Position numbers and translations under genes: made by a program. From positions 455,492-519,491 of the forward strand of contig NW_001865046.1 of NCBI RefSeq assembly GCF_000002865.3: DNA of 64,000 bases, written 5' to 3'. The notes under the pieces were generated by a model. It was not told where the DNA came from, ran no database searches, and saw only the letters and a program-made list of their open reading frames with translations. This document shows, in pieces, positions 1 through 22,527 of this stretch (its first letter is position 1; each line of letters begins with the position of its first letter). The DNA is from Monosiga brevicollis MX1. Its lineage: Eukaryota > Opisthokonta > Choanoflagellata > Craspedida > Salpingoecidae.

Positions 1-3000
1 GTGGCCTTGACTGGAGCCAGCTTCGTAGTTAATGAGGTGACTGCTCAGCGCTTTTTGACTCTCAATTTGAGTCGGGCCGCAGGGCTCTTTGGACAGCTCA
101 ACGTCACGCTAAACATCACCTTTACGGGTGCGCGTGGAAGTGGTAACCCAGTCTTCCTTGCTTCCGACCTAGGCTCGGCCGCAGAAGGCGACGGCTTTCG
201 CGTTCAGACCAGTGTCACCATGGTGGCTGACACCGTGTTGCAGGCGTTTGACTTGCCCATTAGTGACGACTTGCCCACAACAACTGGCGCTGGCTTTTTT
301 GTCAACATTGCGACCGCTTCCCTGGCTTCGCCTGCAACCCACTTGTCCAATTTTACGTCGGTTCAGCCAACATGGGCCAGTGGTACGGTGGCAACGCTTG
401 TAGAAACAGATGCCGTGACGTTTGGTCACTACGCATTTGCCCTCCCCACTGCGACTGTGGAGGAAGGCACTCGCCTCGACGTGGCCGTTCAGCGATCCGT
501 CGGCTACCTTGCGTCGGCCATCGTGGGCTGGCGACTGGTGGGTGATGCGGTTACTTTGGCGGCTAACTTTGAAGGCCCGACGTCTGGAACCTTGAATTTT
601 TCTGCATCCGCTCAGTCGCAAGTATTTTCGCTATATGCGCGCAATGATAGCCTACCCGAGGGACCGCAGGTGTACCAACTACAGCTGCAGATGGTGAGTG
701 AGGGTTATTCGCTCGATACGGCGGCCATGGTCATAACGATTCCCGCAAATGACGGCGCCTTGGGCCACTTTGAGCTGCTGAGGCCTGCCGCACCTTTTGC
801 CCTATCAGAAGGTGCCAGCCTCACGCTAACGGTCAATCGCCTGGGTGGTGCCCTGGGCACAGCCACGGTGTTTTGGAACGTCTCCTTGCCAGATCAGGTG
901 ACCACCAGCAGTGGTAGCCTTGTCTTTACCGAGGGTGTCAGCACAGGCAGCATTGTCCTCGAGGTGCTTGACGATGCAGTACCTGAGCTCAATGCTACGC
1001 TTGCTGTGCGACTGACAGCCACTGCTGGCCAGTTCGATGGCCAAGCCACCTTTGATGATTCGGTGCTGCCCGTGGTACTGTTGGCCAGCGATGACCCCTA
1101 TGGTGTGGTGGGTGTTGAGGCAGAAGCTACGGGTATTGCAGTCGTTGCGGGTCGGGGGCGTGCATTAGTGGGCCGCGTCGAGCGCTCGCGTGGGACCCTG
1201 GCAGACGTGGACGTGACTCTCTCCATCACCGGCCTTACATCGAGTAATGTGCTTGGTGCAACCCTCCCCACATGTGCCACGGAGGCTCTCACTCAAAACT
1301 GTCAGATCAGCGTTTTATTGGACCTCGATAGCGCTTCCACGCGCTTCCAAATGTTTATTGCTGAAACGGTCGCCCTCAATTCGTCGCGAGACATTCTCGT
1401 GCGTGTGGAAAATGCTCAAATAACGGGACACAGCGAGCCTGTACCTTTGAATAGTACCCTCAAGACATATGCAGTGCGCCCAAGCACTGCTCACGTGATC
1501 GGCAGCTTGGGTTTGGTGACGCCTTTGATCACTACAGTGAGTGAACCAGATGATGGCACTGTGTCCGTCGAGCTGACTGTAACGCGCCCGGTTGGAACCT
1601 ACACTCCCATGGGCCGTGGCTACGTGCAAGCAGCGTGGGCACTTGTCAACGCCCCCGCGTCTGCCTCGCTCACGCCTGCCTCAGGCGTGGTGCTCTTTGC
1701 TTTTGGTGATGCATCTGAAAACATCAACCTACAGCTAGCTGCGGACACGGTGCCCGAGGAAGCGGTGGCAGTAACGCTGCAGCTGCAGACCCCTGTGACG
1801 TGCTTTGTTCTGAACAACGGCGCGTGCTCTTCGGGGAATACAAGCGCCAACCCCACGTATGCCCTTGATGCGACACGAAGCGCTGTGGCTTTGACGGTGG
1901 CTGAAAGTGATGACCCCTATGGGCGCATCGAATTTGCTGCCGCACGACACATGGTGTCCGCCTACGCGCAGCTTGCAAACATTACACTCGTACGCTCGGG
2001 GGGGTCGCTAGGCCGGGTGCGCGTGTCCGTCAGAGCACGTCAAAGTAATCTTGATTCGTACCCTTTGGCAAGTCAAAACCTTGTTGCAGAGTTTGCTGAC
2101 GGAGTAACGACGGCTACAGTCAGCGTTGATCTGGGCGCCACCAACGCTGCCCGGAACAGTGATGAGCCTCTGAACTTCACATGTGCTCTGTCGCTGGGCA
2201 GCGATGCCTCTGCAACAGGACGCCCCCCTGTCCTCGGCAGTCGCACAACACTACAAGTTCTGGTGGTGCCTGAGGATTATAACGTCGCAGAGGACGATGA
2301 TTGGGTGGCCAGCGTCAGCACAGGCGCCAGCGGCACTTCTGCAAGCGGGTCACGCTCGTGCACCAGCACGTTGCCTAGCTCATGTCTGGGTCTGACCGGT
2401 GGTACAAGCTGGGATGCTTATGAGGACTGCCTGAGCACCCTTCGACGCGTGCTGCGCATCTCTGCAGCGCCGCTTTTCTGTGAGGAGCAGCTTAACTATT
2501 TGTATGCTGCTAGTCGGCATATGCTGCAAACTACTCCGAGCAATCGAACTGACGCCGAGCTGGCCACGGCAGTTGCACCTTTGCTCGATGTCATGAATGA
2601 ACAAAGATTTGCAGCCAATGAGCCGGCTGTTTTGTGGGACGACTTTGCGCGCCTCTTACTTGAGACATGCGAGACGGGTGAGGTGAGTGCAGAGTGCGCG
2701 TGCTGCTGCGAGCGCACAGCAAGCTCCACCAGCTTTTGGCTGCGCGCATCAAGAACCAGAGCCTCTAGTCTGTACAACGTCGAACTTTCGTCTGATGACT
2801 TGAGCTTGACGTACCCGCCGATGCTGCCGAATGTGTTGGCGAGCAACAATGGTGATGCCTGTGAAACGCTCTTGACTGGCACTTTAACGGCCCCACGAAG
2901 CTTCCCAGCCCCGCAGTACTCTCGCATTCTCAACGACAACGTCATTGAAGCTGGAGTCATGGACCGGAGCATCACGGACTTGGAAGAGGACAACCAATTT

Positions 3001-4365
3001 GAGTTTACCATCACCAATGCCCAAGACGTCTTGCACCCTCGCTGCGTGTATTGGAGTGATTCCGCTTCAGGCTGGCTGGATCAAGGATGCGCCGTTCTAC
3101 TTGACACTGATAGTGTCACGTGCCGATGCAACCACTTTTCCACCTTTGCGGTTTTGGAGGATACCTCGTCCATTATTCCGGTCTACCTCCTGATTGCCCT
3201 TGGCATCACGGCTTTTGCAAGTGTAGTGGAGCTGGTGCGAAGTGCTCGCCAATCCGGCGAGGGTGAGGTATTGCTCAACCTCATGCAGGTCACGACGATT
3301 GTGGCTTGCGTATTGACACTCGTGAATGGCGCCGTTTCTCCCGTTGAACGGGATGCAAGCGATGGCATGACGGTCCTGGCACTGTTCACCCACTTTGGCT
3401 TGTTAGCTTACTTGTGCACCGCCATGACTGCCGTTTTCGTTCACCACCGCCAATGGCGCACCAAGGGTGCCCTCATGCCAAAAATGACGCGACGCCTGTC
3501 TATCGTTCTGGCGCTGCTCGTACCTGCCTTCTTGGTTGCCGCTGTGGTGGTCCTCTCTTTTGCTGTAGACCTGGGAGTGGGTGAAGCCTATGGCATTATG
3601 GCTGACGGGCGGCGCTTTTCTTTCTGTCTGCTGTTATGGCCCCTTGTGGCAACGTGTATCCTGCCTTGGGCCTGTGCTGTTGTGTTATGGGGTCTGGTCG
3701 TAGCTCTCAACCGAGACTCTACGACAGTGATTATCACTGCTCATGCGCCTCGCCTGTCTCCCAGCGAAGATGGGGAGGATGCAGTTTCGGAGAAGAAAGA
3801 TTCGCAGCAGCTGGACCAAGAGCGTTCTCAGTTGCGTCAGCGCGCCATTGCGTGGGTGTCCACGGGGCTGGTTGCAGTGGCTCTCGTTGCCAGTGCCATC
3901 TACGTCCACACCACGGCTCTCTACATTCTGAGCACCATCGCACTTTTGGCATGGGCCTTGCTCCTGATCATCTTCCCACATTGGCAAGAACGTTCGGCTG
4001 GCCGTTCCGTGGCCATTGCCGTACAGGATTCCGTCGAGTTGGGCGCGTTTAGCAAGCAGCACAACGGCACGGCCCTATATGACCTGGCTGAAGCTGATGA
4101 TGCAGTATCTGTAGATGTGACGCAGCAGTCGGAACTCCCCTCGGCCATTTTACGCCCCAGCAACATGTCCATGGACTATGAGCCCATGGAATCCTTCAAT
4201 GGGGGCCTTACGATTCGCAGTCTGGATGAGGGTGAGGATGTCGAATTTAACCACTTGATGGCTGCTCTGTATGGCACGAGCCAAACCGATGATGACGCCC
4301 AGGTCAATACAACCACAGACACCATCGATCTCCGTCGCATGTCAATTGCTGACACTGCCCTGTAG
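1..4365 (+). CDS. Adhesion GPCR with Calx-beta repeats, GPS and 7TM (5' part outside window)
   Basis: Open from base 1, so the N-terminus lies upstream; 1454 codons are visible without an intron. Residues 1 to about 760 hold repeated beta-sandwich units with acidic turns typical of Calx-beta domains, for example SEPDDGTVSVELTVTRPVG near 1540-1595. A GPS motif sits at 3031-3160 (CVYW, then CRCNHFSTFAVL), with autocleavage expected between F and S. Seven hydrophobic segments follow at about 3172-3237, 3268-3336, 3367-3440, 3496-3567, 3616-3708, 3844-3912 and 3916-3975. The roughly 125-residue tail is acidic and ends DTAL, a class I PDZ-ligand form. Calx-beta plus GPS plus 7TM is the layout of ADGRV1/VLGR1, an adhesion receptor of cell-cell links in animals. 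Ligand and G protein cannot be told from sequence. Stop at 4363-4365. Confidence 0.9.
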   Translation: MALTGASFVVNEVTAQRFLTLNLSRAAGLFGQLNVTLNITFTGARGSGNPVFLASDLGSAAEGDGFRVQTSVTMVADTVLQAFDLPISDDLPTTTGAGFFVNIATASLASPATHLSNFTSVQPTWASGTVATLVETDAVTFGHYAFALPTATVEEGTRLDVAVQRSVGYLASAIVGWRLVGDAVTLAANFEGPTSGTLNFSASAQSQVFSLYARNDSLPEGPQVYQLQLQMVSEGYSLDTAAMVITIPANDGALGHFELLRPAAPFALSEGASLTLTVNRLGGALGTATVFWNVSLPDQVTTSSGSLVFTEGVSTGSIVLEVLDDAVPELNATLAVRLTATAGQFDGQATFDDSVLPVVLLASDDPYGVVGVEAEATGIAVVAGRGRALVGRVERSRGTLADVDVTLSITGLTSSNVLGATLPTCATEALTQNCQISVLLDLDSASTRFQMFIAETVALNSSRDILVRVENAQITGHSEPVPLNSTLKTYAVRPSTAHVIGSLGLVTPLITTVSEPDDGTVSVELTVTRPVGTYTPMGRGYVQAAWALVNAPASASLTPASGVVLFAFGDASENINLQLAADTVPEEAVAVTLQLQTPVTCFVLNNGACSSGNTSANPTYALDATRSAVALTVAESDDPYGRIEFAAARHMVSAYAQLANITLVRSGGSLGRVRVSVRARQSNLDSYPLASQNLVAEFADGVTTATVSVDLGATNAARNSDEPLNFTCALSLGSDASATGRPPVLGSRTTLQVLVVPEDYNVAEDDDWVASVSTGASGTSASGSRSCTSTLPSSCLGLTGGTSWDAYEDCLSTLRRVLRISAAPLFCEEQLNYLYAASRHMLQTTPSNRTDAELATAVAPLLDVMNEQRFAANEPAVLWDDFARLLLETCETGEVSAECACCCERTASSTSFWLRASRTRASSLYNVELSSDDLSLTYPPMLPNVLASNNGDACETLLTGTLTAPRSFPAPQYSRILNDNVIEAGVMDRSITDLEEDNQFEFTITNAQDVLHPRCVYWSDSASGWLDQGCAVLLDTDSVTCRCNHFSTFAVLEDTSSIIPVYLLIALGITAFASVVELVRSARQSGEGEVLLNLMQVTTIVACVLTLVNGAVSPVERDASDGMTVLALFTHFGLLAYLCTAMTAVFVHHRQWRTKGALMPKMTRRLSIVLALLVPAFLVAAVVVLSFAVDLGVGEAYGIMADGRRFSFCLLLWPLVATCILPWACAVVLWGLVVALNRDSTTVIITAHAPRLSPSEDGEDAVSEKKDSQQLDQERSQLRQRAIAWVSTGLVAVALVASAIYVHTTALYILSTIALLAWALLLIIFPHWQERSAGRSVAIAVQDSVELGAFSKQHNGTALYDLAEADDAVSVDVTQQSELPSAILRPSNMSMDYEPMESFNGGLTIRSLDEGEDVEFNHLMAALYGTSQTDDDAQVNTTTDTIDLRRMSIADTAL

Positions 4366-4759
4366 CCACTGTTCTGTTTCGGTGTGTTGTGAATGTTTTG
4401 ATGAATGTCGTGCTAACCTTGGTTTTGTTGGGCCGAAATTGAGCTAGCCTCAATGCACCCAACCCTTTGTACCTTATTGTCTTTCTATCCCTACCCCATA
4501 GTGAGTGCGCGTCCCCATTCTTGAGCTTGAAGCCTTGTTGATGGTGATGAAGTGTCTGCTTGCTTTTGTGTGTGTGTGCGTGTCATGTTAAATTGTGTTC
4601 CTTTTTCAGAAGTTTGAATTGTTCTTGGAGCACAGGTGCACATGCTGGCGTTGCCGTGTCTAGTAGCTCTAAGATCTGAGCATGTGCGGCAGATTGTTGC
4701 AGAATTGACCCCAATCATTTCAACCGCTTTTTCAAAGTAGGCCGCACTCGGTGCGTATG
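4366..4759. other. Convergent 3' intergenic region
   Basis: Lies between the stop codons of two genes facing each other. A TG-rich run at 4566-4582 is the only structure seen; presumably 3' UTRs. Confidence 0.6.
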
Positions 4760-7700
4760 CTACTGAAAATCAAACATGGTCTGCGCCTGTAGAATATTCT
4801 GTAGCTGTTGAGCAATACCCTCCAGCTCGTAAAGTGCTGCCGTCGAGGCTGCATTTTCACTGCCCAGTAGCTCTGTGTCTCTGAGCGAGGATATGTTCAT
4901 TGCAGGCTCAAAATGCTGCAGAGCTGGAAACTGGTGCAGGACCAGCTCGGCTAGTGTGCCTGACCGTAGCAAAACTCCGTGGGTCTAACGAGTAGCAGCA
5001 GAGCATGCACTGAGGAAGGGCAAAAAGCTCCCTGGTTCTCGTCTCAGATCAGAGTGACTTCAGGGGCTGGCAGCCACGCAGTTGATCCGCACCTGAAATT
5101 CCAACACAAAGCTTGCTGTGCTAAACGGTGTACCTGTAAACAAAGTTATGAGTGCCAAGCGAAAGCCAGGGACCCCTGTCACGTTGGTTGTTGCCTTGAC
5201 ATTGCCCCTCAACAAGCCTGCGTGCAAGGAATGGCCCCTATACCACTCGATACCCATCACTTGCACCGATGACATACCCGCCACCTGACCCATGAGGTCT
5301 ACTAGCTGCTTGAAGGGAATAGGCCAGACGTACTGCGCCACCACCAAAGCCTGCAAACAACAAACGCAGCAGAGAAAAAAAAGGCGAAAATAAACCTGAG
5401 CAAGGGCCGGTGCTATGCTGGTTGGCTTCCACAGGTGCAATGACAAGCAATCACATCTGACCCAAAACAGCGTTGCAGGCTGCAGAAGAGCGTCGAACAG
5501 CTCCTGGGCCAGCTGCTTCGTTCTGCTGAGAGGGATGGTACCAGCATTGGCCAATGAATAGGTTAAGCAAAGAGCAGCCTGTTGGAACGCGCCTTGTCCT
5601 GAAAACGTTGACCGCGCAAAGGGGCGATACATGTGCCATGAGGATCAAGCAGAAACGGTTGACTAGAGCCCAGGAACAAAGGCGTGGACGACACAAATGC
5701 AGGAGCCGTTTTAGTCATTTAAACATACGGCTCAGGAGTAAAGCGCAGCGTTGACACAAGGCAGAGTCATCACTGTTTATGAGTGCCAATCGACTTGTTG
5801 CAGCTGGGGAAGATTTCGGGGAAAATGAGAAAATGGCAGCTTTGCAAGCGCGTGCTAGCGTGTGCAAAGATAGGAGAGCGGTACCTCGTGTCAAAGGGCG
5901 CCAAGCGTCAGGGTGTAGCGAGAGTGAGCTTGCAGCAGACTGAAGCGCATCGACCCGAGGTGAAGATACCGATTTGACGGACGCGTGACCCTCTGCAGCG
6001 CGAATCGAGGTCGTCTGGGAGGATCAAATCCCGTCGACCAACCAGGATGAGAGACAGATCAGACTCACTTGGTCCTAAGGATGTGAGGCAAGTTCATGGA
6101 TCCAACATGCCTACCTGATCAACAGCCCAGCAGCAGTCAAACAAGATCTGGCAAACATCTGGGCGCGCAATCGGAGAGGTGGTCCACGCCTCCAGACGCC
6201 ATGGAGACCTGAGACAATATGACCGTTGTTGCGTCAATAGATGATGATGCGGATGATGCGGATGATGCACTTGCATATGCAGTTTTGGGGCCGAGTGGCA
6301 TTTGGAGCATCAGGATACCTGAGTGGTGGCGTGTTGCAACAGAGCTGGGCGTCGATTGTCGAGAGCAGGCGCTCGCCCACGCCATTGACAAGCTGATAAC
6401 AAGGGACATGATCACGATGATGAGCACATTCACGGTTTTTGAAAGCCCATGACAGCTAGTGAAGCAAGTGGTTTTTAAACCTGCGAAGTGTCGGCTTCAA
6501 GGGCCTCAGATAAAATGTTTGCGAGCGGCTTAAACTGTTGGGCCCATAAATCGTTCCACTGCAAAAATCATTGTGAGCTGCTAACATTCTGGCAGCCAGC
6601 TGCTGCCACCCGTGAGATTTGGGACGTACCTTTGGGGGCGCCATTTGGCCGGCTTTAGGGGGTTGTTCAAACAATTTGTGGCCCTTCTATACCCAGGACG
6701 GGCGAGGACAAGTTGGGGTGAGATGCAGACGAGTAAACTATGCTCGAGAAGGGGTGAACGACGCGCTCGTTTGGGAGGAAGCCGCACCTGGCGCGTCATC
6801 GTCGTTGCCTGCCCGAGCTGTTCTTGTTTTGCTCGCTTGGGTGTGGTGTGGGCAGCGACGTGTGGAGACTCGGCCGATTTGTGATCCGTTGATTCTCGTG
6901 TTGCCCGCTGCAGGAGTCATGCCAAAAATCAGAGATGAAAAGTTTGGCGGTACTGTTGGTCCAAAATTAGTTTTTGGGAATAGTAAGTGGCAGGCAGGCA
7001 TGTGCCCCGTGACCCTCACCATAATGGCTTGAAACGATGACAACAGGCCTTCAGCGCTCTTTGCAATGTGTGGGAGTATGGCTTGTGCCACGTGTCGGGC
7101 TTTGCCATCGTTGTGCGTCTTAAGATGATGCCGCGCGAGTCGCAGGGCCATGCGTGCAGCCGGTTTGATTGCTTCAGTTTCCGGTGAAGACTTGGGATAC
7201 AGTTTGACCACGGGAGGTGGTTTGCATAGCATACACTCTAGCGCCTGGGATATCAGCTCTGTGGCCCGATGCAGTAACCCAGATGACAGAAGTAGTCGCA
7301 AGAAAGAGACAAGAGTAAGCTGACCCCGGTGTGCACCAGAGCCAAAACAGACGTTCAGTCAACCCGACCTTCATCGGCTGCAGTATTGGAGCTTGAACCC
7401 TGAGCGTCGAGGCGAAGTAGGGCTGGAAAGTACGCTTGCAGTAGGATGGTTGCATCCGGTTTTGGTGGAGATTCGGGGGCTTGGACATCTCGGAGCATCC
7501 AGTCTAACACGCCAGAGTTAAGGTTGGCCTCGAGGTCCTCAAAAGACAGTTGGTGGTGCGTGACGAGAGCCCAGCAGCTGGCCACGGCATTGGTGACCAC
7601 GGCTGGCTTGCTAGATAGCTGGTGACGGATTGTGATGCATCATGAGCACCCACGGTGATTTACGATATTTTTTAAAAAGGGCAAAGGCCCACAACTTGCC

Positions 7701-8865: not shown

Positions 8866-10722
8866 TCAGCGGGGGCGAGTAGCTGTTGGCACCAATTTGG
8901 TAGTAGCTCGCGCACTCGATGAAGTGCTACTACTCCGACTGCTGACGCGGCTGCCCGCCCGGCTTCGGCGAGCGCCACCATCGCTTCGCAAATAAAAGGC
9001 CAGGTACACGCTGGAGGACTACACAAGCAGCCACCGCCCCGCGCAAGGCAGGTTAGACGGCGAATGCGGTGCAGGCAGGCCGGAACACGCAGGGAGAGGG
9101 GTTCAGGCAAACGGCGTTACTAGGACTGACCGTGGCTGGAGCGGTACATAGTCGAGCGGTGGCATCATTGAAGTCACACCAAGCATTGGTGCGCAGATCC
9201 AGGCACTGTGCCGTGTAATGACCTCCAAACAACGAGCCTACATGGTTGACAACACCCACAAGCCGATACACGGTGGGGTCCGAGCGAGCGGCAGCCTCGT
9301 CTGACAGCAGCAAAGACACACGGATGAGTCATCACGTTCCGTGCGCAGAGCCCAGGCGCCCAGGCTTTCGGTCGAATCACACAAACAAACCAGATAAAAA
9401 GGGCGCCAGATTCAGCTCAGACCCTGTCAGAGTGACCGGGGTGGTTAATTTTCGGCTGACATGCCCTCTGCCGAAGAAAACCATCGAGGAGAGCACACGT
9501 CATTAGGGTGGCGCACAGCAGGTACGAGCGCAAGAGCCGGGGCTAGATCAGAGAGAAGGCAGGATATAATGGGCAAAGCAACATACGTGTGTTGAAAGCG
9601 CTTGAAATGCACAATCAAGATGGGTGGTAGGAGCTCCAAGGCCACCTGCTTTGTGACTGGCTGGTTCTTGTGGCAAGCATCGCAGAGAATACGATGATCG
9701 CCCGCCAAATCCTCAGGCTGAGTGTAGCAGGCCAAACAAGCCTCAGTGGTAGGCGGAGATGCCAAGGCGGGCAAGTCCAAAGAAAGATCAACAAACGGTT
9801 CAAAGGTGGCAGATCGATGGCCACAGGAACGACACGTGACGGTCGAGCGGGTCCAGCCTTCAAAATGGGGAAGCATGGGGCCTGGCTCAAGCTGTCGATG
9901 GCGTCGCAGTAGCTGCTCAAAGCCAACCATCACCGGCACGGGGGCTTGGCCAGCAGGTGGTGTGGCAGATGGCGTCTTGGTGGCATCATGGAGTGCAAAC
10001 AGGATTGTGCGCAAGAGCTCTTCAGCATCATGTTGCTCATAGCCCACAAACATGTCATTCGCGCGTGCAGCAGCGTGCTGCAAAGCAAACGGGGCTACCG
10101 CCTGCGGGTTTGGGGTGCCTAGCTGCTCGAAGGTGCGCTGCACAGCTTGGAGAAGCCCGTGACGATCACCCAAGGGGCTTGCCGCAAGCACGCTTTGTCG
10201 AAAGGCTGGCAAATGATAGAGGCATTGCAAGCAGGCATTCATATAGCAGGTGTTGCCCAGATTGCGCAAGCCACGACGGCGCTGCAGAGGCGAGCGGTTG
10301 CTGGCCACGTGTACGGATGGCAAACTGTCCTGTCGTGGGTAGGTGGGCGGGCGCGCAGCCGGGGCGGCCGGCGGCCGGGCCGGTAGGGCTATGCCCGGTA
10401 AGCTGACACCGCCATATCCATTTTCACTCAGACGATGGCTGCGGGATGCTACGTCCAGGGGTGTGATGCTTTTCGGGCGAAACAGGCCCATTCGCGGTGC
10501 CAAACTTGATGCTCGCCGCCCAATGCCCGCTGAGCCAGGGTTGTTGAGGCCCGAGCCGGTGCCAGATCGCCCACTGTACCGCGCGGCAGTTGTCGCCGCG
10601 GGTCCAAGCCGAGTAGCATGTGCAGCGGCAAAGCGGCTCGAGGGGCGAGGTAGCGCATCAGCGGGCTCCAACCCTGCTGCGGACATCCGGCGTCGCGGTG
10701 ACTGAGCCAGTGTAGGGGTCAT
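8866..10722 (-). CDS. Ubiquitin-specific protease (USP, peptidase C19)
   Basis: Exons 9587-10722, 9391-9467, 9131-9300, 8866-9018 (511 residues). Deubiquitinase: a cysteine isopeptidase that removes ubiquitin from proteins. The Cys box GLRNLGNTCYMNACLQ places the nucleophile near residue 159. A CxxC...CxxC zinc-ribbon pair follows (CRSC, CDAC), then FKRFQH. The second exon restores the expected RKLTTPVTLTGSELNLAPFL segment. The third carries the His box (VVNHVG, GGHYTA) and WCDFND with the third catalytic residue. The final exon gives VYLAFYLRS, the usual closing strand, then a short Ser/Arg-rich tail. The first 150 residues are Ala/Arg/Pro-rich and probably disordered. Layout is of the USP36/USP42/USP3 kind, but orthology is not settled. 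ATG at 10722 is preferred; an upstream in-frame non-ATG start is unlikely. Confidence 0.9.
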
Positions 10723-11423
10723 GGTGCCAGCAGTCAAGCGCAACGACTTTGGGTTGCCATCCCATCACCAAGCTCGAGCATTGAGCAAGGGGGTTAGCGC
10801 GAAGAGGTACGAGCGCACGGGCGCCAAATTAAAAGAACAAACTGCGCTGGAGTTTAGGTGAGTCGCAGCCTAAGCACCGGCATCTGACGCCCCGCCCAAT
10901 GGTAGTTGGCTCGTCCAACCGGTCCGTTCAATGGCACGCCTCGCACCCTGGAGCGGCTCGCTCAAGTGCTGGTGGGTCGTTCTGCAATCTGAAGGAGAGA
11001 ATGCCCTCTGGTCGTCAGGTTCTCTGAGATACCGTGTCAAACGTCACACTTTGGACAACAGACCTTTAACCCATTCCCCTTTTAGTAACGTAAATGTAGT
11101 AAATCATAGAGATGATGTAGAGAATGGCAAAGAATAACGTATAACGTTACCATGTTAGGTATGGGAAATCGTCGCAAACTAACAAGAATGAGAAGATATA
11201 AGCGTTCAAAGCCAGAGACTAACATGTGGTACCACAGAGAGAGAGAGAGAGAGAGAGAGACATTTTTCTCGCAAGAGAAGAAGAAGAGAGAGAGCGCGAG
11301 AGCGAGGCGATTTGCATTGCGAGGGGATAGCGTCATCTTCGGCGGGTTTTGGCGTCGTGCGGTGAGACGATTGGGGTTGGATGTTGTGCAGGTGCCTGCC
11401 ACCACACTTTCTCTACCTTCAAC
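10723..11423. promoter_or_regulatory. Divergent promoter region, USP and TBP genes
   Basis: 701 nt between two start codons facing apart; the promoters and 5' UTRs of both genes should lie here. A (GA)11-type tract sits at about 11238-11261 on the TBP side. No specific factor site could be recognised. Confidence 0.5.
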
Positions 11424-12438
11424 ATGGCCGCTAAAGGCAATGTCAAGGTTGAAGCCACGGAGAACTCGGCGACTTCTCTTCCGACCGCCACGGATGTACG
11501 GCCCGCGGATGGCATCACCCCGACCGTCGAGTACGTGGTCCCGTGCCCCCGCTGCGTGTGCCACCTTGGCTTGGCTTGGCTCGGGCTTGGCTTGGCATCT
11601 GTCGGGTATAGCGGCGACAAAGGTTGTGGCAGTGCAAGGCCCTCATTGGTCTCTTTGTTCGCTTTTGCGCAGAAATGTGGTCGCCACCGGCTACTTTTCG
11701 GGCAAGGTCAATCTCGCTGAAGTGCAGAAGAAGACCCGCAACATCGAGTATAATCCTCGCCGCTTTGCTGCGTGTGTTATTCGTAACAAGCTGCCTCACA
11801 GTACAGGCCTTCTCTTCTCCTCTGGCAAGCTCGTCATCATGGGCTGCAAAAGGTACACCGCGGCCCCCCGCCTCATCCGCACCTGAGCGCACTGTTTGCG
11901 TTTCTGGCTCTGGTGCTGGCTCTGGCTCTCTAACGAGAGCATAATATCACTTTCCCCACACATTGTCCAGTGAGGAGCAGGCTGAGCAAGCCTGGAGCAA
12001 GTTCCAGGATATCGTGATTAAGCGTTGTAACATTGCCGTCACGCCCACCGGCTTTAAAATTCACAACGTCGTGGGCAAGTACGTCAAGCACTGCCCAAAC
12101 CATCTGCCATGAGATCACATCTCGCGATGATCATCTAATACGGCCCTTCCTGATGATTGCTCAAATGCGTGATGCTGTGTCCCTGAATGCGTTTTAGGGT
12201 GGACGTGGGCTTTAAGATTGACTTGCACAAGCTACATATGGAGCACTCCAAATTTGTGACATACGATCCCGAGACGTTTCCAGGCCTGACCTACCGAATG
12301 CAGGACCCCTCGGTTGTTTTGTTGGTCTTTCACAGCGGGAAAGTTGTCTTGACCAAGGCCAAGACTCGCCTTGAGATGATTGAGGGTCTTCGCCGCATCC
12401 TGCCTACCCTGAAGGAGAACCGTAGTTCAGTGGCTTGA
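11424..12438 (+). CDS. TBP: TATA-binding protein (TBP family)
   Basis: Exons 11424-11530, 11673-11852, 11971-12078, 12198-12438 (211 residues). General transcription factor: binds and bends TATA promoters as part of TFIID. After a short N-terminus of about 36 residues come the two pseudo-symmetric saddle repeats, ENVVATGYFSGKVNL... and HNVVGKVDVGFKIDL.... The four DNA-intercalating Phe positions are all present: RRFAA, LLFSSGK, ETFPGL and LVFHSGK. So are the paired Asn residues that open each repeat. Those features favour TBP over TLF/TRF2, which usually loses some of these Phe. The helix joining the repeats (EQAWSKFQDIVIKRC) is quite different from the conserved basic TBP helix that contacts TFIIA and NC2. 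This could therefore be a divergent TBP or a second TBP-related paralogue. Confidence 0.9.
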
Positions 12439-12977: not shown

Positions 12978-15900
12978 CTATGCCGAGCTCCATTGTGGTT
13001 GGAAGCGCACAACGGGATACTTCTTGGCGGTACCGGAGCGTGGGCGCCGAGCCTCTGACGCACGTCCATGGGGCTTGCGCGGTTGGATTTCGCGAAGCTG
13101 GCGCACGCCCAACTCAGGGGCCACATGTTGTAGCAAGAATGCATGCTCAAAAGCCAAGTCATGGTAATGATCCAAGCCTGTCTGCCCCATATGTCCGCCC
13201 GAGTTGGCGCGCAAAAGGACAGGCTTCCAGTCCCCCTTGACTTGACGCAGACGATGCACCCACTTGGTAGGCTGTGCTACGCTGACCAGGTTGTCGTTGG
13301 TTGCGGTTACACACATGACGTAGGGATACGTCTTGCCGGGACGAAGGTTTGTGTAGGGGCAGTAGCTGCGCATGTAGCCCATCATGATGGGGTCCTCAGG
13401 ATCGCCCCATTCTTCGTACTCATAGGCAGTGTATGGTGCCGAGGCATCTTGCACCGTGGTCACCACGTCCAAGAAAGGAACCTTCAGAAGGGCTGCCGCG
13501 CATAGATCAGGTCGCATGTTCAAAACAGCACCAACCAACAGACCACCCGCTGACCGGCCTGTCAAGGCCAGTTTGCTCTTGGATGTAATGCCGCTGGTGA
13601 CCAGATGCTCGGCGCAGGCGATCATGTCAAAAAAGCTATTTTTCTTGTGCTCACGGCGACCCTCAAAATACCATGTGGCGCCAAGCTCCGAGCCACCCCT
13701 AAGCAAGCATGCACGACCCAGTTTGGGCCGAATATTAGTTTCGAGGAAAAGAAAGGCGATAGAGAGAGAGAGAGGGAGAGAGAACGCCCGAGGTAGTTTG
13801 AAGCAGCAGGTTTTTTCTTTTTTTTTTTTTTTTCAAAGAAGAAAGCAACGTACCGCACGTGGGCTACGGCGTAGACCACACCCCGGTCCAAAAGAGACAG
13901 GACAGCGGGTGAAAAGTTGAGCTCGACAGATGAGCCGTAGGCACCATAGCCATACAGGACGCAGGGTTGATTGCGTGGTTTTTCTGTATGAATGGCTTGA
14001 TTGTAGATCAAAGAAATGGGCACCTGTTGTGGAAAAGGGCAGGTGGGACCAGGAGAAAAGGTGTATGAGAGGAACAGCATAAGGACTTTCAAGCTATAGG
14101 CATCGGTGGTTGTTGGGTGCAGTCAACTGGAGAAAAAGGAGCCCATGCAGGTAGAACGAGAACAGGACAACAATTGGTCCAAGGCGTACCTGGGTACCGT
14201 CCTGGCTGATGGCAGTCAGGCGGCGCTCCTTATAGCGGAAGGCCTCAAAGTTGATCACGGACGAGGCAAATTTGATATCAAAGCGTCGGGTGTCAGGATC
14301 GTACGTGAGCAACTGGGTCGGGCAAATGGGGCTCGAGTAGAACAATGTCATCAGGCGCACATTCTCGGCTTTTTGAGAAGGAAGGAGCAGGCCGCGGCCC
14401 GGGCGCATGGGGTCGCAGCCCCCCGTGATGGACCAGAATGAGTAGATAAGATGCGGAAAGCTGATGTAATGGTCAAAAGAGACGACGACGACACCATCTT
14501 CTTGGGTGAAATGCATGAGGCGAATCTGCTTGGCGGCATAGCTCTGCTCAACCATGGCCACGTAGCCATCCAACGCAATGACCTCCTGCAGCTGAACGTG
14601 CTCGCGCGCCGCCATGCAAACGGAAAAGTCACCCAGCGCAATACGATCGCCCTGCAAGTAACATGTGGCGGCCTCCAGCTGATGATTCTTTGCATCACCG
14701 CGGTTGGTGCGCATGAAAAGGGTATTTCCGGCCACGTCACACGTATAGTTGACACCCTGGGTGCGAGGCGACACGACACACAGCCATGCAGCTGCTCCTC
14801 CCAAGCGCACATTGAGGTCAGTCGGCAGGAGCAGGCACTCTGATGTGCTCTGGGAGGCCGAGTCAATAATCAGGTAATTGCCATCGCTGGACTGGTGTAA
14901 GGTTACGGCAAAGGCGGCATCCGTCTCTTGGAAAACGACCTGGGGCGGAACATTGCCGTGTAGCTGATGCAAGAATACTGAATTGGGCATCGTCTCGCCG
15001 ATACCAGAATAGAAGACCCCCTGACCGTCCTGGGTGAAGAAGAATTCGGCAGAGACGTCATCGATAACCGTCACAGGCTGTAGAGAGTGTGGTATAGCGA
15101 GGGTTCAAACACCATATGAGTGGCACGCACGGCTCTCGCCCTTTTGATGGCGATCGAAGACGGGGGCCAGAGTGCGGGGCGTATCGTACCTCCAGTGAAT
15201 CAACGTTGATGATGTGCAGCTTGTAGCATTCCTCGCCCTGATCATCGACCGTGTAACCAAAGTATTGGCCTTGTGGAGACAAGATAATCTGTTGGTCGTG
15301 GTCAAGCCAAAGAACATGAGCAAGGGCGAGGGTGGATGGCGAGACGATTCTCAAAAGCAGGGTTGTGAAAAAAAGGCAAACCTGGCCAAAATCGCAAAAA
15401 TCAAAGTTGTGTTCGGCCGCGTACTGCGCTTCATCCAGGAGAACGGTGGCGCCAAGATCAATTAGGGCACGGCGCGTGTCAGAGTCGTCCGAAGCGCGGG
15501 CGAGGGCCTCACGGGCAGTGCTGATGCTTTGCGTAGCCAAGCGGCCGTGTATCATGCTGTGGCGTGCCGAGTCTTGGATGCTGAAATAGATGTGGTCTTT
15601 GATGTCAAAAGCAAAGGGAGGGCGGGTGGGCATGCGCTGGAGCATGTCTGCAACCAATTGCTCCTGAAAGTCGGCAGTGGGGGCCATGACTTCCTCAGCA
15701 TAGTCATATTCGTCATCAATCAAGGTTTGAAACTCCTCACTAGAGGTGGCTTGCATCCACGCATATTCGTCGGGACCATCGCTGCGGCGAGCAATGGGGG
15801 GATCGGGCAGGTCAATGCGCAGTTGTTCCTGGCGGGCTGCGCTGTAGCTCACGAGGGTATCGAGCATGTGCTGCTGTGAGGTGAAATCCGCTGTGGCTAG

Positions 15901-17561
15901 CGCGTTGACGACCGTGGCCAAGTCAGCATCGGATACGGTGTTGGGCTGTTGCAGACGCTTGAGCGTCTGCCCCAGAATGGCCTGGGGGTCTTTGGTCGGA
16001 GCGTCGCGTTGTAGCACGCGGGCCGTCAGGGCGGCAGCATCGGGTCGCCGCTGGTGGCGAGTCCAAGCAGCGCGAACGACCGACTCGAGGAGGTGCGGCC
16101 ATTCGAGGCCAGCCAACTGGCCCGCTCGGCGGAACTTGCCGCCGATCCAGCAATTGGGGTTGACGTCCAGGAGGTGAGGGGTCCCACTGTCATCGAAGCG
16201 AAAGTCGATGCGGGCATAGTCTTGCAGGGACAAGGCGTCAAAAATTTTCGCGCAATGGTCTTCAATCAAAGCTTGAGTGGCATCATCAAATTGGGCATGG
16301 ATGTGAGCGACCTGTTCCCAAAATTCAGGAGCCATGCCACGTTTGGCATCGTAGAGCTGGATTTTGGGGGCATCTGGGGGCAGCTTTGTATAGTCGAGCT
16401 CCAGGATGGGCAACACACGAAAGTCGCCCGAGTCTGGATTTCCGAGGCAAGCCACGGTGATTTCACGGCCCGCAAGAAACTGCTGCACCAACATGGCAAG
16501 GGACGCCAGCTCCTCCTGCCGACCAAGGTCCTCCAGATGGGCCGCGAGCTCTTGGGTGGAATTGCAAATGCAAGTGCTGGTGATGCCTGTGCTTCCATCA
16601 CCACAACGGGGCTTGACCTGCCAGATTGGGTACGAGCATAGCAGCAGGTCGGTCGTGAGGATAGAGTAAGGGATAGTCGGCAGAGCGGCCAAGAGCACGC
16701 AAGTGACGCACAATCACGGGAAAGGTGAAGACGTGGGTCTCGATAAACTCGTTCACGGTTTGGTGGTTGGGCTCAAAGACATGGCTAAAAGGAACAGCAA
16801 TGTTTAATGCCTAAGGGTAAGTGCAGAAGATGTTGGGCAGTGATGCACATGCTGGTTAGTTGGCAGCGTCATGGTGGTGTCGTCGGGCGCAGGGCTTGAC
16901 GACCGCTTCTGACCTTGGCTACCGAGTCGACGAGCCACTTGTCGCGGCAGAGGGTGAGGCCAATGGCACCGGTGCCCGTGTACGGGATGCCGTGCATGTC
17001 CATCAGGGCGGGTAGGTAGGGCTCCCATTCATTGACGTTGTTGTAGCCTTCATCACACCTACATAGCCCCAGATATGCACGGGCAGGGAAAAAAAAAAAA
17101 AAAGAGAGGGTTCATGGTGCACTGCGTTCATTCCGGTGCACTCGAGGTGGCAACGGTTGGGGTGTGGGACGAGAAACTTACAAGTTGAAGATAAAAGCCG
17201 GAGGCTGGGATTTGAAGCGTTCAAGAAGGGTGGCATGGGTATCGAGCCAGCTCATGGTGACGTTAGGAATGCCTGAGAGGGCCTCCTTGAGGTGCTCAAG
17301 CTCCTCATCATCGTGTGGGGTCCAGCCGGGGTCGTCTTGGCGTGGATCGGCTAGCAAAACGGTAATGTTTTCAAAGGGCAGGAGAGGGAGATGGGCCAGC
17401 GGCGAGGCTGTGATGGCCGGAGCCGGGGCCGAGGTTGAGGCCGGGGCGGTGTGCATGAGGCCGGTTCGGGGGCTTTCAATTGAGCTGACGACGGCAGCGG
17501 CGGTACGGGAAAGAGCAGCAAAAGTTGTCACAGCGAGCCGGCTCAACGGCAGCCACTGCAT
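12978..17561 (-). CDS. ATP-grasp (D-Ala-D-Ala ligase-like) / oligopeptidase B fusion
   Basis: Exons 17182-17561, 16914-17058, 16712-16810, 15382-16617, 15190-15288, 14190-15077, 13854-14023, 12978-13698; 3738 nt, 1245 residues, all phases agree. The N-terminal 30 residues are Arg/Ala/Ser-rich and lack acids, possibly a mitochondrial leader. Residues about 65-450 are an ATP-grasp ligase: FNLCDEGYNN, VKPRCGDGSTGIT, then RIDFRFDDSG and LLDVNPNC (metal site, with Asp where Glu is usual). Residues about 535-1245 are an S9A prolyl-oligopeptidase of the PtrB type: propeller, then HVRGGSELG, GRSAGG (Ser about 1055), ATNDNLV (Asp about 1141) and NSGGHMG (His about 1175), a complete triad. Expected activities are ATP-driven amide bond formation and cleavage of short peptides after basic residues. 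The intron between FDFCDFGQ and IILSPQGQ is open in frame but breaks the propeller if retained. Confidence 0.88.
13741..13834. repeat. GA tract and poly-T inside an intron
   Basis: A (GA)n run at about 13759-13783 and a roughly 20-nt T tract at 13813-13833, both within the 13699-13853 intron of the ligase-peptidase gene. Confidence 0.8.
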
Positions 17562-18909
17562 TCACGACTCCTTGGGTGCACGGCGCAAAGGGGCGGGGTA
17601 GCAAATGACGAAGAGGGCGAAGACTCGGGTAGGCAACGCGTTCAAGGAAATGAAGCCTGAGGGTCTTCAGTGAACACCGTCCACAGGCACGTCAAGTGTA
17701 GAGCGAGCATAGCGAGCAGTCAAGAGGCGCGTGGTAGCCACCGTCTCCGTGACATCATGTAGCTGCCACTTTCTGCTTCACGCTGCCTGCCGTTTCTGAC
17801 AGAGTCAGGGGCCATTGCACGCAATGCATCGCCCTTGCAAGCTTTGCTGCAAACACCGCCGTGTTTTGGTGACAAATTGGTTGCTGCAACATCAGCAAAA
17901 CCATCATCATCACAAAGGGAGAGAGAGAGAGGGAGATTGAGAGGGAGATTGAGAGGGAGAGTGAGAGGGATTGAGAGAGATTGAGCGAGATTGAGCGAGA
18001 TTGAGAGAGTGATTGAGAGAGTGATTGAGAGATAGAGAAAGGAAGAGAGAGATAGAGAGAGTAAGAGAGGAATAGAGAGAGGTTGAGAGAGATTGAGAGA
18101 GATTGAGAGAGATTGAGAGAGGGACAGAGAGATTGAGAGGGACAGAGAGAGATTGTGAGGGATAAACATACGTACACATGTAACAGTGGGCGGGTTGGGG
18201 GTGAGTACAGAATAGAGTGACAAAATATGTTGCAGCAGTTCGTGGAGGTGACTTTTTCAGTCAAGCAACCGACAAGAGAGAGAGAGTGTGTGTGAGAGAG
18301 AGTGTGTGTGCATGTATTTCTTACTGCAACGTACCCTTTGCCTGTTGGCCAAAGGGAGCTTGGCACCGCTTGACGGTAAGGGGTGGGGGGTGGGGGATTT
18401 GCAATGTTAGGGAAAAGGGCGCTGGCTTGCTGCAACTGAGGCTTCTCGCACCATCAATCTGATGCTGGATTTCATTCACGACATGGGCATCAACGTTAGA
18501 GAATGGGAGAGAGAGAGAGGGCGTCTCACACCATCAACAGTCATCAGCAATGAGCATCTGGCGTCTCTCTGATCCACCCGTGGTTGGTGCAAGTCTTGCA
18601 CCAACAGGGGGTGCCCCTTTTACCGTTTTTCTTGGTCGGCCCCCTCCCGACCCGAACATGAGCCTCCCCAGCCGGCCAGCGACTGGCATTTTTCTTTGCC
18701 TCTGTCACGGTTCCAAGCAAGCTCGAGCAGCTCTGCCACCCTCTGCCCTTTGGCCACACACCCCGCGGTCGATTACCACCCGCAACACTCTGACCTTCAA
18801 CAACACAGCTTTGGCCACTGCCACTGCTTCTGCCTCCTTTCTTCAATACCAGTGGCACCGCAATCTGGACTCGTCGTCTTTGTCGCAGCTGCCCTACACC
18901 ACCAGCATT
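17562..18909. promoter_or_regulatory. Shared upstream region of the two ATP-grasp genes, with GA-rich repeats
   Basis: 1.35 kb between the start codons of two divergently transcribed ATP-grasp genes. The part at 17918-18165 is an imperfect array of GAGAGATT-type units. A GA/TG tract lies at 18275-18312. An open frame continues upstream of the chosen start of the + gene to about 18550, so its true start could lie earlier. Shared regulation is inference from geometry only. Confidence 0.5.
17918..18165. repeat. Imperfect GAGAGATT-type microsatellite
   Basis: About 250 nt of GA runs interrupted at short intervals by TT or GGG. On the minus strand it reads as long Ser/Leu open frames, which are artefacts of the repeat. 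Confidence 0.85.
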
Positions 18910-21184
18910 ATGACTACCCTTGCCGATGGCCTGTCCCTCGATACTTTGCCCTCCGAGTCGAGCGCCACAATGACCACCGCCACCACCACATCGTCTTCAC
19001 CCACCACCACCACCACCAAGCGCGCCAACACCGTCTGCCATGGCATTGTCGACTCGCTGGAGGCCAAGCTCCCTGAAAAGTGGTGGGAGACTCTTTTCGA
19101 TGAAATGTACGTCTGAATCGCCCCTTGCTGTCAGATGGCTCTGATCGCCCGGGCTTGGTACCCATTTATCTCTTCTTTTGCTTACTTGGTCTCTTTTGTT
19201 GTTGGTTGTCAGGTACCTGAAGACGGATGGCGATGTTGTGGAGAATGCCGACATTACCGCCGATGAGGTCGATGCCATCCTCAACGCAGTTGCGCTGCCT
19301 GATCAAGCTGCCGTGTTGGACCTCTGCTGCGGCCAGGGCCGCCATCTTCTCGAGTTGTCCCAGCGTCGCTCCGATTTGCAACTCTTTGGTCTCGATCAGT
19401 CTGCCTTTCTCATCCAAACGGCTCAGGCCCGGGCCGATGCCAGCCAAAAGAATGTCCACTTCACCGTCGGTACCTGCGATGCTCTGCCCTACGAAGCCAA
19501 TTCGTTTGACCTCGTGACCATCATGGGCAACTCTTTTGGCTACTTTGAGCGCGCTGAAGTTGATCAAATCGTCATTGCTGAAGTTCAGCGCGTCCTCAAG
19601 CCCGGCGGTACCGTTCTCCTCGACCTGACCGACGGCGAGCACATGAAGAATACCTTTAGCCCTCGCTCCTGGGAGTGGATCGACGATACGCTCCTCGTCT
19701 GCCGTGAGCGCCAGCTTGCCAGTGACGGCCGCCGCCTGGTCTCGCGTGAGGTCATCACTGACACGAACAAGGGTGTCGTTCGCGACCAGTTTTATGCCGA
19801 GCGCCTCTACACCTTCCCAGAGCTGCGCGCTGTGTTGGAGAAGGCGAGCTTTGTTGGTCCTCGCCAGATTGACATTCTCACAGGCGAGAAGAGCGACCGC
19901 GGTGGTCAAGACCTCGGTATGATGGCCCACCGCATGTTCATCCGCGCCAGCAAGGCCCCCACGGAGGTTCAGCTCCTGACCATGGGCACCCAGGCCAGTC
20001 TGCCCATTGAGACCACCGACACGGCCAGTGAGCAAACCATCTCGGGTGTCAGCACGCCCGGTACAGCCAAGCTTGTGGTGGTCATGGGCGATCCCAGCCG
20101 CCCATCATCGGAGAAGCTCAATCAGACGTGGAATGATGAGGATCTGCTCACGATCGAAAAGCTGAAAGGTGTTGTCCTTGAGCGCTTTCAACAGGATCGT
20201 GAAGTCGTCTTCTTGAACCACCACGACTCCATGTTCGAGGCCCTCACCGCTTTGGCTCGCGAGCACATCCCCCCGGTCATCTTCAACCTCTGCGACGAAG
20301 GCTTCAACAACCATGCTCGCCTGGAGCTGCACGTCCCCGCCATGATGGACATTCTCGGTCTGCACTACAGTGGTGCCGCTCCAGCTTGCTTGGCTATCTG
20401 CTACGACAAGGGCCTGGTCAACGCGCTGGCCCGTCGCCTGGGCGTTCCCGTGCCTGCCGAGGTCTTTATCTCTCACGAAACGGATTTGCGCCAGCTCTTG
20501 ATCGACGAGGCGGCCGCCACCGAATTTCTACAGGATCTCGACTTTCCCGTCTTTGTCAAGCCCGTGCGCGGTGATGGCTCAGTTGGTATCACTGCCGACT
20601 CCATCTGCAACAACGTGGAAGAGCTCATCTCCTACGTGGAGGCCGTGCGGGCCAACCCTACGGTCTTGAGCAAGGATGTGGTTGTGCAGGAATACCTGCA
20701 GGGCGAGGAGGTCTCCGTCGGTGTTATCGGTAACCCTGAAATGGATGCCGTCGGTGACGTTATTCCGGACAGCGCCCTTTTCTTGCCCATTCTAAAGGCG
20801 GACTTTTCCCAGCTGCCCGCCGATTTGCCTCCCATTCTCTCCTATGAGTCCAAATGGGATCCCGAGTCCCCTTATTGGACAGACGTGCAGTACAAGCCAG
20901 CCGAGGTGAGCGCTGAGCACCGACGCCAGCTGCACCAGCAGTGCGCCCTCTTGTTCAACCGCTTTGAGCTGCGTGACTTTGGTCGATTTGACTTCCGCTT
21001 TTCCAAGCGCACGCAAACATTCAAGCTGCTCGAGGTCAACCCCAACCCGGGTTGGTGCCATGATGGTAAAGCGGCTCTCATGGCCCAAATGGCCGGGCTG
21101 AATTATGCCGACATGATTCAGCGCATCATTTTGGCGGCCGAGGCGCGAATCGAAAAGGCGCGGAATGCTCAGTGGAAGCTCTAA
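18910..21184 (+). CDS. Class I methyltransferase / ATP-grasp ligase fusion
   Basis: Exons 18910-19106 and 19213-21184 (722 residues). Residues about 70-335 are a SAM-dependent methyltransferase: motif I VLDLCCGQGRH at about 100-110, acidic strand-2 motif FGLDQS, and VLKPGGTVLLDL. Residues about 345-722 are an ATP-grasp ligase of the D-Ala-D-Ala-ligase type: FNLCDEGFNN, VKPVRGDGSVGIT, VQEYLQGEEVSV, then FGRFDFRF and LLEVNPNPGW with the metal-binding Asp, Glu and Asn. It shares many positions with the ligase of the divergent neighbour, so the two are paralogues. Expected chemistry is ATP-dependent joining of a carboxylate to an amine plus methyl transfer; substrates are unknown. The N-terminus is Thr/Ser-rich. 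An in-frame extension to about 18550 exists, but ATG 18910 is preferred because the upstream residues look non-coding. Only one intron, near the 5' end. Confidence 0.88.

Positions 21185-21712: not shown

Positions 21713-22527
<815 letters not shown>

Follow-up and report, generated by a model that had tools for sequence, protein, structure and literature searches.

Organization of the locus

Two genes of the ATP-grasp family lie side by side in the choanoflagellate Monosiga brevicollis, within a window of 64,000 nucleotides that makes up the whole stretch of DNA analysed (Table 1). The original prediction of two genes transcribed apart from a shared 1.35 kb region was borne out: gene A is read from the minus strand and gene B from the plus strand. 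It had also placed a peptidase in one gene and a methyltransferase in the other. Peptidase_S9_N and Peptidase_S9 domains were indeed found in gene A, the peptidase being of the oligopeptidase B type, and a class I methyltransferase was found in gene B. The splice sites of both gene models were picked by reading frame and homology. An upstream in-frame ATG at 18550 is an optional start for gene B.

Table 1. Coordinates of the predicted genes, their exons and domains, and the region between them (positions in the window)
Feature	Position	Strand	Evidence and remarks
Gene A, ATP-grasp + oligopeptidase B fusion (1245 aa, 8 exons)	12978..17561	-	predicted spliced model, one open frame
Gene A exons	17561-17182, 17058-16914, 16810-16712, 16617-15382, 15288-15190, 15077-14190, 14023-13854, 13698-12978	-	
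Gene A ATP-grasp (D-Ala-D-Ala-ligase-like), residues about 65-398	16050..17369	-	intron-interrupted; Pfam Dala_Dala_lig_C E 3.7e-14; VanA alignment
Gene A oligopeptidase B domain, residues about 491-1206	13100..15771	-	Pfam Peptidase_S9_N + Peptidase_S9; 4bp8 E 2.6e-88
Intergenic region	17562..18909	.	1348 bp from one start codon to the other; CT-rich in tracts; a third gene is not convincing
Gene B, methyltransferase + ATP-grasp fusion (722 aa)	18910..21184	+	predicted spliced model; near end-to-end alignment to bacterial fusions
Gene B exons	18910-19106 (197 bp), 19213-21184	+	one intron
Gene B class I SAM methyltransferase, residues about 50-312	19057..19949	+	intron-interrupted; LDLCCGQGRH, GNSFGYFE; Pfam Methyltransf_25 E 6.6e-21
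Gene B ATP-grasp, residues about 352-712	20069..21149	+	Pfam Dala_Dala_lig_C E 4.3e-24; VanA/Ddl alignments

The seven introns of gene A are all of the GT-AG type, and its start codon (ATG at 17561) immediately follows an in-frame stop. The fusion is direct, with a single ORF (15061-16713, minus strand) holding both the ligase match and the peptidase-propeller match. The residues S1055, D1141 and H1175 were aligned with the catalytic triad of a solved oligopeptidase B (4bp8), and the acidic motif YEYEEWG corresponds to EWEEWG in that structure; the acidic residues of this motif presumably have an S1 role for Arg or Lys. The peptidase is a complete one of the oligopeptidase B type and is predicted to cleave after Arg or Lys. 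It shares its propeller, hydrolase domain, triad and EEWG motif with the solved enzymes (4bp8, 2xe4, 7ne7) and differs from them in carrying an N-terminal ATP-grasp ligase. No methyltransferase Pfam match was found in the five ORF pieces of gene A that were scanned.

The two ligase domains are related to each other, aligning over 316 columns with 34% identity and 178 bits (best of 200 shuffled controls, 25.8 bits). Both contain the predicted motifs FNLCDEG and VKPxxGDGSxGIT. In both, Lys, Arg, Asp and Asn are conserved at the catalytic positions. Alignment to VanA places K167, K210, E260, R344, D346, D359 and N361 of gene A at catalytic and metal-binding sites, and alignments to VanA and Ddl do the same for K465, K515, E565, R657, D659, E673 and N675 of gene B; for both sets these roles are assumed by us from known ligases. 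The D-x-N metal site that had been claimed for both ligases holds for gene A (D-V-N), where Asp (D359) replaces the metal-binding Glu, but reads E-V-N in gene B. Apart from this substitution, the catalytic positions of both ligases and of the peptidase look kept. The N-terminal 35 residues differ, with three basic and one acidic in A and no basic and three acidic in B, so the proteins may occupy different compartments.

Genomic context

In the 39.47-Mb eukaryotic genome, the only matches found are genes A and B, which are each other's neighbours. The chance of random placement within 5 kb is about 2.5e-4. A biosynthetic gene cluster, as originally proposed, would link several genes for biosynthesis, transport or tailoring. 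The proposal has weakened to two linked genes, A and B being the only such genes found when ten nearby ORFs were scanned with Pfam (window to 28.2 kb). Four of the ten matched a domain (GPS receptor-like, UCH, TBP and Arf) and six had no match. The named flanking genes (ubiquitin hydrolase, TBP and Arf GTPase) are ordinary ones, which argues for a two-gene pair and no larger cluster. A search of the window for ATP-grasp_4 gave no match. A second oligopeptidase-B-like sequence lies on the same contig, roughly 365 kb away, and is 46% identical.

Bacterial relatives

Gene B matches nearly end to end the methyltransferase-ATP-grasp fusions of eight bacterial loci, which represent two phyla (L023, L024, L048, L049, L050, L051, L089 and L090), with a full-length identity of 39.4-42.0%. 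Identity is 47.7-50.2% in the methyltransferase part (eight fusions) and 37-42% in the ATP-grasp domain (six fusions). A class I methyltransferase at the N-terminus, with Dala_Dala_lig_C after it in the same chain, was found by Pfam in gene B, L048, L089 and L050, and by alignment in the others. Gene B and the bacterial proteins also share the segments GNSFGYFE, RSWEW, FYAERLY, NLCDEG and NPNPGW, whereas the bacterial frames are uninterrupted and read GDSSxGIT or a variant where gene B has GDGSxGIT. The pairing of methyltransferase and ligase is no invention of the protist, since it exists in bacteria. Both halves of gene B appear to be related to the bacterial fusion and not to have been assembled separately; the clade evidence for this comes from the ATP-grasp tree, and the methyltransferase half was assessed by pairwise identity.

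In the trees, genes A and B group with nine bacterial fusion rows and with L091, a stand-alone ATP-grasp; this clade has 100/100 support and kept it when A, B or L091 was omitted. This is the opposite of distant clades with unrelated bacterial sisters, and together with the near full-length match of gene B it upholds the bacterial ancestry that had been proposed. The ligase of gene A is divergent (branch 2.0-2.1) and sits in the clade of the fusions with a different architecture; its first 60 residues gave only chance-level matches to them (E 0.43 or worse). L091, which the trees place nearest among the bacterial relatives, has no methyltransferase and contains an in-frame stop. It shares VKPxxGDGSxGIT and VQ(E/Q)(Y/F)LxG with A and B, and the eight aligned fusions differ there. 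Duplication as the origin of the pair fared less clearly: the best tree has the topology A,(B,L091), and a clade of A and B was not rejected (AU p = 0.123). Two acquisitions are therefore also possible.

At ten bacterial loci (nine fusion loci and L091), a search of 96 ORFs of at least 110 aa turned up neither an oligopeptidase-B relative nor another ligase matching the profile. A pathway of two ligases, or of ligase and peptidase, was thus not seen in bacteria. The profile searches brought up no ATP-grasp-oligopeptidase fusion among the bacterial ligases that matched closely. One candidate for an unfused methyltransferase and ligase operon (G599) was set aside, as its first ORF ends in an apparent joint that is read in another frame; it was read as a fusion that a frame change has split, and was counted as neither unfused nor intact. 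At one bacterial locus the fusion adjoins a Na/H exchanger-TrkA gene and a permease, and a related locus has look-alike ORFs; an osmolyte role drawn from these neighbours was considered too thin to claim.

A DNA-pattern scan of genome contigs, run with the alignment of A and B, returned 37 pattern matches but no more than five distant loci (best identity 26%), a poor view, since profile searches afterwards recovered the fusions. Two scans of viral contigs yielded no relative. Twelve phage records were found, with 22.6-27.3% identity among the eight matches listed. None of 515 plasmid records covers 80% of gene B and none of 731 covers 80% of a bacterial fusion; one of 468 covers 80% of the gene A ligase query, and this is a Streptomyces D-alanine ligase with 27% identity. 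Among the open-licence papers listed, seen mostly as titles and the beginnings of abstracts, none dealt with this gene pair or with methyltransferase-ATP-grasp fusions, and none described a function for the bacterial fusions. To our knowledge, these fusions have no known function. A 2009 study of ATP-grasp amidoligases by Iyer et al. may reportedly describe relatives.

A putative pathway and its alternatives

Genes A and B most likely belong to one short pathway, a reading proposed tentatively, that would end in a small metabolite resembling a di- or tripeptide, methylated and basic. Gene B would combine two functions on a bacterial design: the methyltransferase would act on an amino-acid-like substrate or on the product, and the ATP-grasp domain would turn a carboxylate into an acyl phosphate to be coupled to an amine. 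Gene A would supply another ligase from the same clade, one that lacks the methyltransferase and is fused to an oligopeptidase B cutting after Arg or Lys. It may thus be a synthetase and hydrolase in one chain, building and cutting an amide beside a basic residue. The activities, substrates and order of steps, the specificity for basic residues, the shared pathway and the role in building and cutting are what we infer. Glutathionylspermidine/trypanothione synthetase-amidase likewise joins a ligase and a hydrolase for one amide bond in one chain; its hydrolase domain is unrelated to that of gene A, and the likeness is one of logic only. A methyltransferase, a hydrolase and an ATP-grasp enzyme cooperate in the assembly of cystargolide and belactosin, which serves as a precedent (PMC11427300). 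There the likeness lies in the kinds of enzyme (CysG methyltransferase, CysE hydrolase and ATP-grasp ligase) used for one small peptide, and that system is a bacterial gene cluster with an extra AMP-forming enzyme.

The adjacency of A and B may be a mere trace of duplication, and it is quite conceivable that no joint pathway exists. Gene B would then, like its bacterial counterparts, make a methylated peptide of its own, and gene A would be a duplicate that captured an oligopeptidase B for a separate job in peptide turnover or protein modification. The bacterial fusions, which have no ligase or oligopeptidase-B partner nearby, are consistent with this, as are the divergence of gene A, its Asp in place of the metal-site Glu, and the other oligopeptidase-B-like sequence on the same contig. 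Both ligase sites otherwise look active, however, and the sole two copies found have remained adjacent. Rather improbable is a cryptic methylation, in which the methyltransferase of B turns a carboxylate into a methyl ester as a mask, the ligases join the amino acid so masked, and the serine (alpha/beta) hydrolase of A takes off the ester or a leader residue, much as a hydrolase acts in cystargolide assembly. There, one pathway does combine masking by a methyl ester with a hydrolase and an ATP-grasp enzyme (PMC11427300), but the EEWG motif and propeller kept in gene A suit peptide better than ester substrates, and the bacterial fusions have no such partner nearby.

A pathway to mycosporine-like amino acids, with the methyltransferase and two ligases as counterparts of MysB, MysC and MysD, is very unlikely. 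The same kinds of enzyme are known there (O-methyltransferase, ATP-grasp and D-Ala-D-Ala-ligase-like MysD; PMC10510106, PMC11983340). Two DHQ-synthase matches exist in the genome, but neither is linked to A or B, none occurs among the ten nearby window ORFs scanned, and none was noticed by eye beside the bacterial genes. MysB is presumably a member of O-methyltransferase family 3, for which (Methyltransf_3) an exon-by-exon search of the genome gave no match, and the peptidase would be left without a function. It is scarcely credible that either ligase is a D-Ala-D-Ala (or D-Ala-D-Lac) ligase acquired from bacteria, even though VanA and Ddl are the best solved matches of both and share the ATP-grasp family, the catalytic positions and Dala_Dala_lig_C with them. 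The NCBIfam Ddl scores of 97.6 (B) and 82.8 (A) bits fall far below the cut-off of 245.65, the N-terminal Ddl Pfam domain is unmatched, and A and B are fused to other enzymes. The acceptor-site motif of Ddl, PGMTxHS, is replaced by PGWCHDGK in B and PNCWIGGK in A. With these signatures missing a cell-wall role is unlikely, and it was rejected mainly on the family scores and motifs. No Mur ligase domain match was found in an exon-by-exon search of the genome, which lends weak support only, since folylpolyglutamate synthase, which shares this domain, was missed too.

Concluding remarks

It is possible, if on the doubtful side, that A and B form a two-gene eukaryotic pathway, remodelled from a bacterial capture, to an undescribed methylated peptide, with a self-contained ATP-grasp/oligopeptidase B enzyme that builds and cuts. 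The locus points to eukaryotic small-peptide chemistry that uses neither ribosomes nor NRPSs. The bacterial source family is expressible and can be assayed, and solving gene B would give a function to a family present in at least two bacterial phyla. If true, the fusion of ligase and oligopeptidase would add a new example of one protein that both forms and hydrolyses an amide.

The locus and its two genes

The two neighbouring fusion genes are transcribed divergently, gene A joining an ATP-grasp ligase to a peptidase and gene B joining a methyltransferase to an ATP-grasp ligase. This arrangement had been read correctly in the original prediction. The start codons lie 1348 bp apart, and this interval has CT-rich tracts and no convincing candidate for a third gene. 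The window (G000:C49:455492-519491) belongs to a genome of 39,470,161 bases in 57 contigs, and 31 of its 32 two-kb bins have a GC content of 52-60% (43% in the remaining bin). Because both genes contain introns and eukaryotic genes lie on either side, the DNA was taken as resident eukaryotic and not as a bacterial contaminant. These neighbours encode a ubiquitin hydrolase, a TATA-binding protein and an Arf-family GTPase, so the earlier term "cluster" was too strong.

Features of the window, its contig and the related bacterial loci
Feature	Coordinates	Strand	Description
Large ORF	1-4362	+	Adhesion-type-receptor-like; GPS site, weak Calx-beta match under cut-off
Ubiquitin hydrolase gene	9448-10764		Eukaryotic neighbour
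TATA-binding protein exon	12187-12435		Eukaryotic neighbour
Gene A	17561 (ATG) to 12978	-	8 exons, 1245 aa
Gene B	18910-19106, 19213-21184	+	2 exons, 722 aa
Arf-family GTPase exon	21942-22181		Eukaryotic neighbour
Oligopeptidase-B-like exon match	G000:C49:837494-837904		46%; about 365 kb from gene A, same contig
L003 (Thioflavicoccus plasmid)	1464-5810		Related ligase and neighbours
L008	6799-9269		ATP-grasp gene, then ATP-grasp gene with C-terminal SET part
L009	567-3149		As L008
L011	2032-4760		As L008
L089	4370-8749		Fusion and neighbours
L090	2919-11102		Fusion and neighbours
L091	6189-9177	-	S15-type peptidase/hydrolase and 315-aa protein beside the stand-alone ligase

Splice sites in both genes are predicted, having been picked on frame and homology. 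The seven introns of gene A are all GT-AG (93-166 bp), and its ATG lies immediately 3' of an in-frame stop. The ligase and peptidase-propeller matches fall within one ORF of gene A, and the fusion is therefore independent of splicing choices. An in-frame ATG upstream of gene B (18550) would give 842 aa. GC3 is 0.66 in gene A and 0.72 in gene B. Pfam domains are Dala_Dala_lig_C (3.7e-14), Peptidase_S9_N and Peptidase_S9 (2.1e-43) in gene A, and Methyltransf_25 (6.6e-21) and Dala_Dala_lig_C (4.3e-24) in gene B. Among solved structures, B's methyltransferase matches 9ri2 best (3.1e-23); that entry is titled "Methyltransferase, putative" and names no substrate.

The peptidase of gene A is of the oligopeptidase B type, with 4bp8 as its top solved match (2.6e-88, versus 3.9e-50 for the best chain named prolyl endopeptidase). 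The presumed oligopeptidase B triad is matched in the alignment by Ser1055, Asp1141 and His1175. The segment YEYEEWG aligns with EWEEWG of 4bp8, and its acidic residues are presumed to read Arg/Lys at P1. The second oligopeptidase-B-like exon match on the contig could be kin of this domain.

Ligase domains and their active sites

The ligase domains of A and B align at 178 bits, the top score among 200 shuffles of B being 25.8. Searching the organism's own genome with the B domain, with the best candidates scored, gave three matches, all at this locus (B and two stretches of A). The chance of two random genes lying within 5 kb on 39.47 Mb is about 2.5e-4.

Both domains keep two Lys, Arg-x-Asp and the last Asn, as well as the Glu within an (E/R)E(V/I)(S/T)V segment; we assume the roles of these residues by transfer from D-alanine--D-alanine ligase (Ddl). 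In A, Asp359 occupies a position that is Glu in all ten other aligned rows. The acceptor segment of Ddl is unlike that of A and B, and NCBIfam Ddl scores for both are far under the cut-off. With the catalytic positions kept, A and B are thus predicted to be ligases but probably not cell-wall ligases, and that role was set aside. An exon-by-exon search of this genome for the Mur ligase domain found no match (control positive in 12 of 14 genomes, all prokaryotes). Folylpolyglutamate synthase, which shares the domain, was likewise missed by this search, so the Mur ligase absence is weak.

Bacterial relatives and origin

In the phylum of genome G004 (one of whose loci bears the title Gemmatimonadetes), 98 of 200 genomes had a match to a profile of the A/B alignment at E <= 1e-20; for the phylum of G001 (locus titled Chitinophaga) the figure was 77 of 395. 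Among the matches listed, the six with E < 1e-80 (two and four, respectively) all proved to be methyltransferase-ATP-grasp fusions. Their open frames span 645-734 aa, too short to accommodate a ligase-oligopeptidase fusion. A full fusion profile (E <= 1e-60) was then used on genome sets that overlap these, so the counts are not additive. It matched 2/98 genomes in the order of G209 (one fusion, one ligase-only match), 3/6 in the class of G014 (two fusions, one methyltransferase-half match) and 6/244 in the class of G592 (four fusions, one frame-split, one stand-alone ligase). The distinct bacterial fusions number eight, one of them (L024) truncated by a contig end just past the ligase domain. 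Gene B matches all eight nearly end to end at 39.4-42.0% identity (47.7-50.2% in the methyltransferase part).

In a 76-row ligase tree, A, B and six fusions form one clade (100/99). A 33-row tree with nine fusion rows (the eight and the ligase ORF of the split L088) and the stand-alone L091 of G720 places A, B, the fusions and L091 together at 100/100. This clade stayed at 100/100 when B, A or L091 was left out, and the shared bacterial ancestry of the A and B ligases is therefore firm within this sampling. The pair may have arisen by the proposed duplication in the eukaryote or by two acquisitions. The former is compatible with a constraint joining A and B, which costs 4.4 log units and is not rejected (AU p 0.123). 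In the unconstrained tree, B groups with L091 (97/88) and A joins them at 92/75 on a long branch (2.14); placing B with the fusions costs 8.6 log units and is not rejected either (AU p 0.137). A stays with L091 when B is omitted (96/84), as does B when A is omitted (99/96); with L091 omitted, A falls outside B and the fusions (80/57).

L091 is interrupted by a single in-frame stop codon; across the 11 kb around it, none of the ORFs was recognised as a methyltransferase. Convergent with it are an S15-type peptidase/hydrolase and a 315-aa protein; the latter has no Pfam hit, and its KPIMNLRGMGTG segment is ATP-grasp-like by eye.

Genomic context in bacteria

Neighbourhoods were surveyed at ten bacterial loci, nine with fusions and one with L091 (96 ORFs of at least 110 aa). 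The ligase profile matched the family member alone at each locus, and no oligopeptidase B relative of A's domain was found among these ORFs. Fusion neighbours vary between lineages by eye. With no such partner nearby and unconserved neighbours, the bacterial fusion seems to work alone. In L089, the fusion adjoins a Na/H exchanger-TrkA protein and an amino-acid-permease-family transporter; L090 has ORFs resembling these neighbours and a sulfate permease preceding the fusion. These hint at an osmotic role, too little to claim.

Paired ligases occur elsewhere in the superfamily. Two adjacent ligases are present at nine loci in the phylum of G001 (L052, L053, L054, L055, L056, L058, L061, L062, L070), and in the 76-row tree the two of each locus fall in two separate clades; they form an old conserved tandem pair. 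The tandems of L008, L009 and L011, hosted by Chitinophagaceae and a Gemmatimonadetes MAG, again have two ligases and a methyltransferase kind (SET part Pfam-confirmed in L008, by eye in L009 and L011). In L003, the ligase lies with an annotated diaminobutyrate transaminase, SbnA and ornithine cyclodeaminase, which suggests a diaminopropionate-containing peptide.

Proposed mechanism

The pair holds two ligase domains of the same clade with catalytic positions kept, the methyltransferase being fused to B and the triad-bearing oligopeptidase B to A. B would couple a carboxylate to an amine, with substrate or product methylated. A may perform a further coupling or reopen an amide next to a basic residue, and the two proteins would act in one pathway. 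Synthetase-hydrolase single chains are a precedent for the ligase-peptidase logic of A. For the logic of the pair, a precedent is cystargolide, where an ATP-grasp, a methyltransferase and a hydrolase act as a team (PMC11427300). Counted against this mechanism are the solitary bacterial fusions, the differing N-termini of A and B and the Glu-to-Asp change in A.

The novelty of the methyltransferase-ligase pairing had been overstated, given the eight nearly full-length bacterial matches to B, whose predicted architecture is already known in bacteria. What is new is the ligase-oligopeptidase B fusion, not observed among close bacterial matches, and the eukaryotic A/B pair as a whole.
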